Part shown: positions 4,617-5,720 of the stretch, piece after piece
Layout: each line of letters opens with the position of its first letter
How positions within the stretch are numbered: the first letter of the stretch is position 1
Assembly: GCA_018267065.1 (NCBI GenBank)
Contig: JAFDZG010000068.1
Span: 1 to 44,083, forward strand
Direction of reading: 5' to 3'
DNA length: 44,083 nucleotides
Origin: Bacteroidota bacterium
Lineage (GTDB): Bacteria > Bacteroidota > Bacteroidia > Flavobacteriales_F > PHOS-HE28
Translations under genes and position numbers: made by a program
The notes under the pieces: model-generated
Told to the model about the DNA's origin: nothing
Database searches by the model: none
What the model saw: the letters and a program-made list of their open reading frames with translations, nothing else

Positions 4617-4738
4617 AAGTGCTGCTCATTGAACCGCATGCGGACCGGCCTGCCGCCCGCAAACGCGAAAAATTCCTCAAGTCGGGTGCAGGCAAGGAAT
4701 TTTTGAGGGAACTTCGCGCCCGCAACACCTACCCAGGT
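4617..4738 (+). pseudogene. Truncated duplicate of the GIY-YIG nuclease gene (3' half only)
   Basis: From aagtgctgctcattgaacc at 4617 this segment is nearly identical to the 3' half of the intact nuclease gene (from 4942), including the region encoding DRPAARKREKFLKSGAGKEF. The N-terminal GIY-YIG catalytic half is missing: upstream sequence (4577-4616) is unrelated. The copy runs directly into a tRNA-Leu 5' end, as the intact copy does, so a nuclease-plus-tRNA unit was tandemly duplicated (offset 325-328 bases) and the left copy decayed. Confidence 0.85.
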
Positions 4739-4800
4739 GGCGGAATTGGTAGACCTGCCTGCCGGCAGGCAGGCGCGCTGCTGGCTCAAGCCCCGGAGTT
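4731..4800 (+). pseudogene. tRNA-Leu remnant interrupted by a palindrome in the D-loop
   Basis: acccaggtggcggaattggt plus aga (4731-4753) equals the acceptor strand, D-stem and D-loop of the intact tRNA-Leu at 5059 with one change. At the point where the intact tRNA continues with cgcgctgg, this copy has the perfect 20-base palindrome at 4754-4773, then cgcgctg. An anticodon-arm-like stretch (ctggctcaagccccgg) follows with poor pairing, and no T-arm is found before the nuclease start at 4806. It cannot fold as a tRNA. Confidence 0.7.
4754..4773. repeat. Perfect 20-bp palindrome CCTGCCTGCCGGCAGGCAGG
   Basis: The sequence is its own reverse complement. It interrupts the D-loop of a tRNA-Leu remnant with no visible target duplication. 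Together with flanks aga on the left and cgcgctgc on the right it matches 42113-42143 over about 31 bases with four differences, and the right half plus flank recurs at 18750-18770. Confidence 0.85.
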
Positions 4801-4805
4801 GATCA

Positions 4806-5105
4806 ATGGTCTGCTTTGTTTACGCACTCTACAGCCTTTCAAGGGATTACATTTATGTGGGCCTCTCCAATAACACGGACCGGCGAATAGATGAACATCA
4901 ACGCGGCAAAGAGCCTACTACCCGGCCCTACCGCCCTTTTGAAGTGCTGCTCATTGAACCGTATGCGGACCGGCCTGCCGCCCGTAAACGCGAAAAATTC
5001 CTCAAGTCGGGTGCAGGCAAGGAATTTTTGAGGGAACTTCGCGCCTCCATCCAAACCTACCCAGGTGGCGGAATCGGTAGACGCGCTGGTCTCAAACACC
5101 AGTGA
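4806..5105 (+). CDS. GIY-YIG nuclease family protein overlapping tRNA-Leu
   Basis: A 99-residue single-domain GIY-YIG protein of the small UvrC-N-like/homing-type family. The domain starts VCFVYALYSLSRDYIYVGLS (GIY and YIG replaced by VYA and YVG, as is common in this subfamily), followed by NNTDRRIDEHQRG with the conserved Arg. A Glu comes after YRPF, and the signature DRPAARKREKFLKSG is present. The natural end is expected soon after EFLREL; instead the frame runs through the acceptor and D-arm of tRNA-Leu and stops at 5103-5105 inside the anticodon stem, a 47-base overlap. Its function in these bacteria is unknown. A duplicated truncated copy lies immediately upstream, so it probably behaves as a selfish or tRNA-linked element. 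Confidence 0.8.
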   Translation: MVCFVYALYSLSRDYIYVGLSNNTDRRIDEHQRGKEPTTRPYRPFEVLLIEPYADRPAARKREKFLKSGAGKEFLRELRASIQTYPGGGIGRRAGLKHQ

Positions 5106-5140
5106 TGAAAGTCGTGCGGGTTCGACTCCCGCCCTGGGTA
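5059..5140 (+). tRNA. tRNA-Leu (anticodon CAA)
   Basis: A complete class II tRNA. Acceptor strands are acccagg (5059-5065) and cctgggt (5133-5139) with discriminator A. The D-stem is gcg/cgc (5068-5070/5082-5084). The anticodon stem ctggt/accag surrounds loop ctcaaac, giving anticodon CAA at 5093-5095, which reads UUG. A 13-base variable arm follows, then T-stem gcggg/cccgc with loop ttcgact. CCA is not encoded. The 5' half overlaps the 3' end of the GIY-YIG gene. Partial copies of the same tRNA lie on both sides. Confidence 0.95.
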
Positions 5141-5159
5141 CTCACCTAGTATGGTATCG

Positions 5160-5203
5160 GCGGGCCTGCCTGCCGAAGGCAGGTTCGAGTCCCGCCCTGG
5201 GTA
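5160..5203 (+). pseudogene. 3' fragment of tRNA-Leu interrupted by a palindrome in the T-arm
   Basis: gcggg (5160-5164), ttcgagt and cccgc (5184-5195), and cctgggt plus A (5196-5203) reproduce the T-arm, 3' acceptor strand and discriminator of the intact tRNA-Leu. Between the T-stem 5' strand and the T-loop sits a 19-base near-palindrome (5165-5183). No D-arm or anticodon arm is visible upstream (5141-5159), so this is a partial copy. Confidence 0.75.
5165..5183. repeat. 19-base palindromic repeat inside tRNA-Leu T-arm remnant
   Basis: cctgcctgccgaaggcagg is an 8-bp stem (cctgcctg region against ggcagg) around cgaa. It shares the left arm with the 4754 palindrome and is inserted precisely at the T-stem/T-loop junction. 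Confidence 0.75.
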
Positions 5204-5208
5204 CTTTC

Positions 5209-5270: not shown

Positions 5271-5720
5271 ATGCAACAGGATTCCCTGACCTACACCGAC
5301 CCCGCCAAGCAGGCACGGTACGACTTGGCCTACATGAAAATGGCCTTGGAGTGGGCCAAGCTCAGCCATTGCAACAGGAAAAAGGTGGGGGCACTGCTGG
5401 TAAAGGACGGCATGATCATCAGCGACGGCTACAACGGTACGCCATCCGGATTTCCGAATGATTGCGAAGATGCAGCGGGCTTGACGCACTGGTACGTGCT
5501 CCACGCGGAGGCCAATGCCATCATGAAGGTGGCCCGAAGCACCAACAATGCGCGCAGTGCAACGCTTTACCTCACGCACAGCCCTTGCAAGGATTGCAGC
5601 AAGCTCATCCTGCAGGCAGGCATCAAGCGGTTGGTTTATCTCGACCCATACAAGGACACCGCCGGCCTGGACCTGCTGGAAAAAGGCGGTGTGCTTATCC
5701 ATAAGATCCCGGGCAGGTGA
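5271..5720 (+). CDS. dCMP/cytidine deaminase family protein (ComEB-like)
   Basis: A 149-residue zinc-dependent deaminase, most likely converting dCMP to dUMP for thymidylate synthesis. The zinc site is explicit: HAEANAI gives ligand His78 and proton-shuttle Glu80, and SPCKDCSK gives Cys106 and Cys109. GYNGTPSGFPN is the dCMP-deaminase substrate loop and separates it from tRNA adenosine deaminases. The length fits the family. Its stop overlaps the GTG start of the protease gene (GTGA), so the two are probably co-translated. The ATG at 5271 is the first in frame that leaves a normal N-terminus; the upstream region holds tRNA remnants and short repeats but no clear promoter. Confidence 0.92.
   Translation: MQQDSLTYTDPAKQARYDLAYMKMALEWAKLSHCNRKKVGALLVKDGMIISDGYNGTPSGFPNDCEDAAGLTHWYVLHAEANAIMKVARSTNNARSATLYLTHSPCKDCSKLILQAGIKRLVYLDPYKDTAGLDLLEKGGVLIHKIPGR

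Follow-up and report, generated by a model that had tools for sequence, protein, structure and literature searches.

A candidate selfish GIY-YIG nuclease element in bacterial tRNA genes, accompanied by clade-cognate palindromes

Why should a small GIY-YIG nuclease gene run into a tRNA-Leu gene, and why should parts of both be repeated immediately beside them? The question is raised by positions 4617-5105 of the window, the 44,083-nt stretch of Bacteroidota DNA that constitutes contig C313 of a 3.34-Mb draft genome. The initial annotation described the 3' half of the nuclease gene and the 5' part of the tRNA-Leu as repeated at offsets of 325-328 nt, and this description is confirmed: positions 4617-4720 recur at 4942-5045 (104 nt, 98% identity, offset 325) and positions 4727-4754 at 5055-5082 (28 nt, 96% identity, offset 328). 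A gapped alignment unites both direct repeats with a single 3-nt indel (BLAST E 3e-56), and this alignment together with the repeat identity rules out a chance origin. Two further features extend the earlier description, namely a 20-nt palindrome at 4754-4773 and a third tRNA piece at 5160-5205, which also bears a palindrome. The locus is thus made up, in this order, of a decayed GIY-YIG 3' half, a pseudo-tRNA 5' part with a hairpin, an intact GIY-YIG gene, an intact tRNA gene, and a pseudo-tRNA 3' part with a hairpin (Table 1).

Table 1. Features of the nuclease/tRNA-Leu locus in the window
Feature	Position	Strand	Evidence or remark
Decayed GIY-YIG gene copy, 3' half	4617..4720	+	98% identical to 4942-5045
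Pseudo-tRNA-Leu 5' piece, tRNA positions 1-24	4731..4754	+	95% to intact tRNA
Left hairpin, palindrome CCTGCCTGCCGGCAGGCAGG, D-arm of pseudo-tRNA	4754..4773	.	Perfect 20-nt inverted repeat
Putative decayed anticodon-arm remnant of pseudo-tRNA, leading into nuclease gene start	4773..4795	+	Comparison with G010, and L009
Intact GIY-YIG nuclease ORF, 99 aa; conserved domain about 4806-5048	4806..5105	+	PF01541
Nuclease gene 3' end, probably also tRNA promoter	5020..5058	+	TTTTTGAGGGAACTTCGCGCC replaces TATCTTCGC-type box
Intact tRNA-Leu(CAA)	5059..5141	+	ARAGORN; Rfam RF00005 58.7 bits
Pseudo-tRNA-Leu 3' piece: T-stem 5' strand, hairpin, T-loop to 3' end	5160..5205	+	tRNA 61-83
Right hairpin, palindrome CCTGCCTGCCGAAGGCAGG, T stem-loop junction	5165..5183	.	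Sequence; hairpin at breakpoint
dCMP/cytidine deaminase gene, outside element; marker for empty sites	5271..5720	+	PF00383 E 1.6e-24

The left copy had been read as a unit that simply lost its GIY-YIG half and most of its tRNA. Its nuclease half is indeed decayed; the tRNA piece, however, is more than truncated, as the palindrome interrupts it right after tRNA position 24 and is followed by the anticodon-arm remnant. In genome G010, the counterpart of this remnant is nearly intact and continues directly into the nuclease start codon, and at locus L009 the anticodon-arm remnant matches tRNA positions 24-45. On the right side, the 3' piece repeats the end of the intact tRNA (5116-5142 vs. 5179-5205, 93%), and its 19-nt palindrome, which belongs to a class common to other Leu-type loci, lies precisely between the T-stem and the T-loop. 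As DNA, the left pseudo-tRNA folds no better than shuffled sequences (z 0.67) and the right piece folds better than shuffles (z -2.35). The two pseudo-tRNA pieces enclose about 430 nt with the nuclease and the tRNA as the only contents; we found no integrase gene or cargo and no Y1/HUH tyrosine transposase in this unit, the GIY-YIG gene being its sole protein gene. A group I intron was rejected, since the Rfam scan returned the tRNA and one sub-threshold chance match only, and no intron family. The 3' end of the nuclease gene probably doubles as the tRNA promoter, because it has TTTTTGAGGGAACTTCGCGCC where empty loci have a TATCTTCGC-type box before the tRNA.

The window nuclease matches PF01541 (E 1.8e-11) and combines this domain with the catalytic Tyr, Arg and Glu by which the GIY-YIG superfamily is defined; residues Y6, Y17, G19, R27, and E63 are invariant in 32 relatives. 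AlphaFold predicts one confident GIY-YIG domain of 81 residues (pLDDT 96.7), whose fold is nearest to UPF0213 and Slx1 and less near to I-TevI. No extra DNA-binding region accompanies the domain: the tail of the ORF, beyond about 5048, overlaps the tRNA and merely translates its sequence. None of four proteins tested matched an NCBIfam family, and no sequence match was found in PDB. A phage or plasmid origin was rejected, as phage and plasmid sequences contained no homologue at E 1e-5.

To place this gene among its relatives, we used a genus set of 45 genomes, including 44 genus-mates of the window genome, in which every GIY-YIG gene was listed and the surroundings of most were inspected, as well as a class sample and a sample of named genomes that were picked solely by protein similarity. 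In the genus, 9 to about 150 nt separate the genes of one group of short GIY-YIG proteins from a tRNA gene, which is invariably on the same strand, whereas the other small GIY-YIG subfamilies have no tRNA in the inspected flanks, and neither do 20 UvrC genes (flanks mostly of 1.5-2.5 kb, shorter at contig ends); this separation is partly circular, because the later profile was built from linked proteins. A relative is present in 170 of the 395 genomes of the class sample, where 83 loci were inspected and a tRNA lies within 200 nt at 66 of the 78 informative ones. The named-genome scan, which used only Leu-type proteins as queries, gave 59 loci, nearly all from Bacteroidota, Ignavibacteria, and Patescibacteria, with a tRNA within 200 nt at 48 of 51 informative loci in several phyla; three of the named loci (L275-L277) are genus loci that had already been counted. 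Together the three samples contain 141 loci with the gene within 200 nt of a tRNA (27 genus, 66 class, and 48 named), and the gene and the tRNA share the strand in all of them. Even at the unlinked loci, tRNA pieces are still present in most cases, whereas a tRNA-like piece occurs at 0 of 40 control GIY loci of other subfamilies. A generic clustering of GIY-YIG genes near tRNAs is therefore rejected, as UvrC and the other small subfamilies of the same genomes do not show it. This tabulation of distances strongly supports the expectation that small GIY-YIG genes of this kind lie non-randomly relative to tRNA genes.

The linkage is not a speciality of tRNA-Leu, as the initial annotation had supposed for this lineage: association with tRNA as such holds, but an exclusive association with Leu is rejected, since many tRNA types are occupied and distinct nuclease clades exist for Leu, Met, Val/Pro, Ala, Arg, and others. 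On the tree of 135 linked nucleases, tRNA isotype requires 26 changes vs. 80.1 under shuffling, and none of 200 shuffles was as low; the tree rests on a short alignment with weak deep branches, and the isotype label signal is strong. For instance, a supported branch separates the 19 Met-linked proteins from all others. The Leu clade comprises 46 Leu and 2 Ser loci, includes proteins from Patescibacteria and Ignavibacteria, and covers the isoacceptors CAA, UAA, CAG, GAG, and UAG.

Pseudo-tRNA pieces accompany the nuclease at 127 of 140 linked loci, and at 112 of them a piece lies across the nuclease from the intact tRNA. We distinguish two layouts. Type I, found in the window, consists of a pseudo-5' part, nuclease, intact tRNA, and pseudo-3' part; type II consists of an optional pseudo-5' part, intact tRNA, terminator, nuclease, pseudo-3' part, and a second copy of the terminator. 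The tRNAs are broken at recurrent positions, which are 14, 24, and 61-66 for Leu, 27/28 and 44/45 for Val/Pro/Ala, and 37 and 47-49 for Met. A perfect hairpin is found at 209 of 340 internal breakpoints (61%), compared with 5.5% of positions drawn at random from these loci; the hairpins were chosen for perfect pairing, so that their internal base pairs are not taken as evidence of covariation. The hairpin class follows the nuclease clade: CCTGYC hairpins characterize all 36 Leu-clade loci and all 14 loci of the Arg side, TCCG hairpins all 15 Met loci, and TCCCG hairpins 27 of 30 loci on the Val/Pro/Ala side. Mapped on the nuclease tree, hairpin class requires 4 changes vs. 39.4 in shuffled data (minimum 32). 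This match between clade and class is the strongest sign, and it hints that the nuclease and the hairpin belong together.

Tandem nuclease/tRNA arrays are common and reach 10 nuclease copies. In the largest one (L249 1872-6455), ten almost identical GIY-YIG genes follow one tRNA-Met gene with a period of 457 nt, and the copy number of this array may differ among strains. The window genome itself has a second element of the same kind on contig C258 (L002 461-1153), where one intact and one truncated GIY-YIG gene accompany an intact tRNA-Ala(GGC) and pseudo-tRNA-Ala pieces with TCCCGCAC...GTGCGGGA palindromes.

Did the nuclease and the tRNA arrive together? The dCMP deaminase gene that serves as the downstream marker is present in 43 of 45 genus genomes. 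Inspection of 30 syntenic loci revealed 6 occupied loci, 2 scars, 1 locus ended by a contig edge, and 21 loci with a single tRNA. The latter 21 empty loci, including that of G042, the sister of the window genome, have one clean tRNA with no flanking pieces, although in one of them (G018) a sequence resembling the nuclease 3' end precedes the tRNA. In the two scar genomes (G023 and G043), only the right pseudo-tRNA with its palindrome remains. Occupancy needs 6 changes on the species tree for 6 occupied genomes, i.e., it is unclustered. It follows that the nuclease reached a tRNA gene already in place and is gained or lost repeatedly. Of the two possibilities raised before, that these proteins travel with tRNA-Leu genes or that they target them, targeting fits better, as 21 related genomes have a resident, clean tRNA-Leu/dCMP-deaminase pair. 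Elsewhere, the second copy of the tRNA and of the terminator is near-identical to the one at the same locus; these local terminator copies and the clean resident tRNAs at syntenic positions disfavour import of the tRNA with the element.

Decay is evident as well. Stop codons occur in some of the genus genes, half a gene is left in the window, and nuclease-free pseudo-tRNA scars are found in the window genome, at a tRNA-Pro locus and as a pseudo-tRNA-Val at a contig end, and also in G006 and G041. Homing genes pass through a cycle of invasion, decay, and loss, which the turnover at these tRNA loci resembles.

The palindromes are not confined to the elements. The window genome has 11 sites of the left-hairpin palindrome pattern, and the CCTGCCTNNNGGCAGGCAGG sites of the six occupied genus genomes, as counted from the listed places, number 11, 11, 11, 8, 4, and 1; the two scar genomes have 7 and 6, and the remaining genus genomes 0-2. 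After removal of the element copies, the difference persists (Mann-Whitney p 1.2e-5 for occupied genomes, 3e-7 for occupied plus scar genomes), and phylogenetically independent pairs point in the same direction, 4 to 0, but their number is too small (p 0.125). Across the 395 genomes of the class sample, a nuclease was detected in 170 and the palindrome in 37 of these, compared with 17 of the 225 other genomes (p 5.6e-5). Of the 22 genomes known to encode a Leu/Arg-clade nuclease, 13 carry the palindrome (p 2e-8), with some of the copies inside elements. Some sites show exact insertion. In about a dozen genomes, one coding-type repeat has the sequence CGGATCTTG; in others it is CGGA[20 nt]TCTTG, which corresponds to an exact 20-nt insertion, and a single contig of G001 (C123; L353 1065-1214 and 2408-2569) carries this repeat both with and without the palindrome. 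A six-tRNA array of G007 (contig C20; L337 1480-1747) includes tRNA-His and tRNA-Lys genes whose T-loops contain a CCTGCCTGCC palindrome, placed where the pseudo-tRNA-Leu also carries it. Several palindromes of the window genome (L108, L113-L115, and L117) are embedded in a dispersed repeat that is longer, at about 100 nt (GGTGGCTCGAAGTACCTCGAA...). One class genome, G051, has about 60 copies of a CCTGCCT...GGCAGGCAGG palindrome, far above any other sampled genome.

Several known systems share parts of this arrangement. Phage T6 SegB cuts within tRNA genes, with a preference for the motif RAWTSGAAC, and causes its own tandem amplification together with a tRNA (PMC13096335). On the opposite strand, this motif would read GTTCSAWTY, which in our reading corresponds to the T-loop, and the right palindrome of the window directly precedes TTCGAGTCC in the same loop; this coincidence with the motif leads us to propose homing into tRNA genes. 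The nuclease genes studied here share with SegB of phages T4/T6, a free-standing homing endonuclease, the GIY-YIG catalysis and the position among tRNA genes, the linkage that is seen at all 141 loci; they differ in that SegB is phage-borne and, in the accessible text (PMC13096335), is not reported with pseudo-tRNA or palindrome partners, whereas here a bare 81-residue domain resides in bacterial chromosomes with one clade per tRNA type. REP palindromes with the dedicated nuclease RAYT/TnpA-REP (PMC8266576, PMC2817692) are likewise short and dispersed, and the nuclease gene is flanked by the same palindromes in both systems. RAYT, however, is a Y1/HUH tyrosine transposase, whereas the present system has a GIY-YIG enzyme, its home in tRNA genes, and apparently few dispersed copies; sites number 11 in the window genome and up to about 60 in one class genome, G051. 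Integrative elements with tyrosine integrases likewise insert into tRNA genes, which are known hot spots, and fragments of the tRNA stay behind (PMC9897764); here the unit lacks an integrase and cargo, the tRNA is broken internally, hairpins mark the breakpoints, and an intact copy remains within the unit. The hairpins have their own parallels. Site-specific single-strand GIY-YIG nucleases of Neisseria and others, named Ssn, are small and reportedly paired with repeats near their genes, a feature that the cognate hairpins fit; we know of no tRNA association or pseudo-tRNA scaffold in that group. Rickettsia palindromic elements are short palindromes inserted in genes with the reading frame kept; the insertion into genes is alike, the palindromes described here differ in being 19-20 nt long, and to our knowledge no nuclease is linked to the Rickettsia elements.

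We therefore consider it reasonably probable that the locus represents a small selfish GIY-YIG element residing in tRNA genes, with clade-cognate palindromes and a mode of action that combines SegB-like and REP/RAYT-like working. The nuclease would recognize an extruded hairpin and/or sites within a single type of tRNA, which for Leu would be the D-arm and the T stem-loop junction, and would cut there. Recombinational repair of the homing type would then copy the nuclease gene into the tRNA locus and duplicate the tRNA, and the host presumably survives because one intact tRNA copy is always kept. Broken tRNA copies may acquire hairpins at the cut points, and the same nuclease may scatter the hairpin elsewhere, including tRNA T-loops and coding repeats, so that the cognate hairpins would be either recognition sites or by-products. 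The recurrence of the arrangement with matching enzyme, tRNA, and palindrome types in Bacteroidota and other groups gives it the look of an overlooked selfish element. Several observations count against this explanation. Visual comparison of occupied with empty loci revealed no protective recoding of the intact tRNA beside the nuclease. The predicted bare domain near UPF0213/Slx1 would operate without the extra DNA-binding region of known homing endonucleases. The palindrome occurs in the 17 genomes without a detected nuclease, while its exact pattern is missing from 9 of the 22 genomes with a Leu/Arg-type nuclease, and the independent pairs mentioned above are few.

The alternatives divide these observations differently. 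A plain SegB-like homing endonuclease, with the palindromes as cut-resistant scars or unrelated repeats in unconstrained pseudo-tRNAs, would account for the tRNA linkage, the tandem arrays, and the empty sites and has a close parallel in SegB (PMC13096335); it is nevertheless unlikely, given that hairpin class tracks nuclease clade across phyla (4 changes vs. 39 shuffled) and that dispersed copies are enriched in genomes with Leu-type nucleases. A second alternative is a REP/RAYT-like system, in which single-stranded hairpins are the substrate of the nuclease and palindromes are what it mobilizes, with tRNA genes as no more than favoured landing sites and no homing into tRNA genes as such. Cognate hairpins flanking the gene, hairpins inserted elsewhere, and the precedent of REP palindromes with a dedicated nuclease (PMC8266576, PMC2817692) speak for it, but the specificity of clades for tRNA types across phyla exceeds a mere landing preference and hairpin numbers are low (0-11 in the genus), which makes this reading quite improbable.

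Action at the RNA level would also produce isotype-level specificity: the nuclease could cut one tRNA type, and transcripts of the hairpin-bearing pseudo-tRNAs, which lie beside the gene on the transcribed strand, could serve as decoys or antidote. We regard this as very improbable, since GIY-YIG enzymes are mainly known as DNases (PMC1564403), the pseudo-tRNA fragments vary in extent, and hairpins are also found distant from tRNAs and within coding DNA. Even less credence is due to a host function, by which the nuclease would be kept to increase tRNA gene dosage or to repair tRNA genes; tandem arrays and conserved catalytic residues agree with it, while the usually single intact tRNA per array, the patchy occupancy (6 of 30), the decayed copies, and the scars do not. 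The least credible of all, with a negligible chance, is ordinary local duplication at a tRNA hot spot with nuclease and tRNA unconnected. Such hot spots are known to leave tRNA fragments (PMC9897764), but the 141 same-strand linked loci, with none in the control subfamilies, and the isotype-specific clades with cognate hairpins already contradict it.

Homing nucleases and palindrome-nuclease pairs are already known kinds of systems, and there is a real chance that the system described here is a kind of its own. Partial journal coverage was searched, and no description of this arrangement of tRNA, GIY-YIG gene, and palindrome was found in it. We tentatively propose a new mobile system, in which clades of bare GIY-YIG nucleases, each with its own palindrome and tRNA type, split one tRNA copy, preserve another, and disperse palindromes. 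It is conceivable, if somewhat doubtful, that this system is a GIY-YIG counterpart of REP/RAYT nested in the tRNA genes of Bacteroidota, Ignavibacteria, and Patescibacteria. If the selfish-element explanation is true, a selfish gene persists at tRNA genes through duplication of the very tRNA that it attacks. A large group of small GIY-YIG proteins would thereby gain a concrete partner and target, the dispersed palindromic repeats of these genomes a possible source, and the predicted enzyme-palindrome pairs could serve as site-specific tools. The same explanation would account for a class of tRNA pseudogenes that are likely to mislead annotation. At L029, the tRNA-Leu(cag) called by ARAGORN at 318-391 relative to the nuclease domain is a pseudo-tRNA whose anticodon arm is a palindrome, and pseudo-tRNAs of this type probably produce false tRNA annotations.
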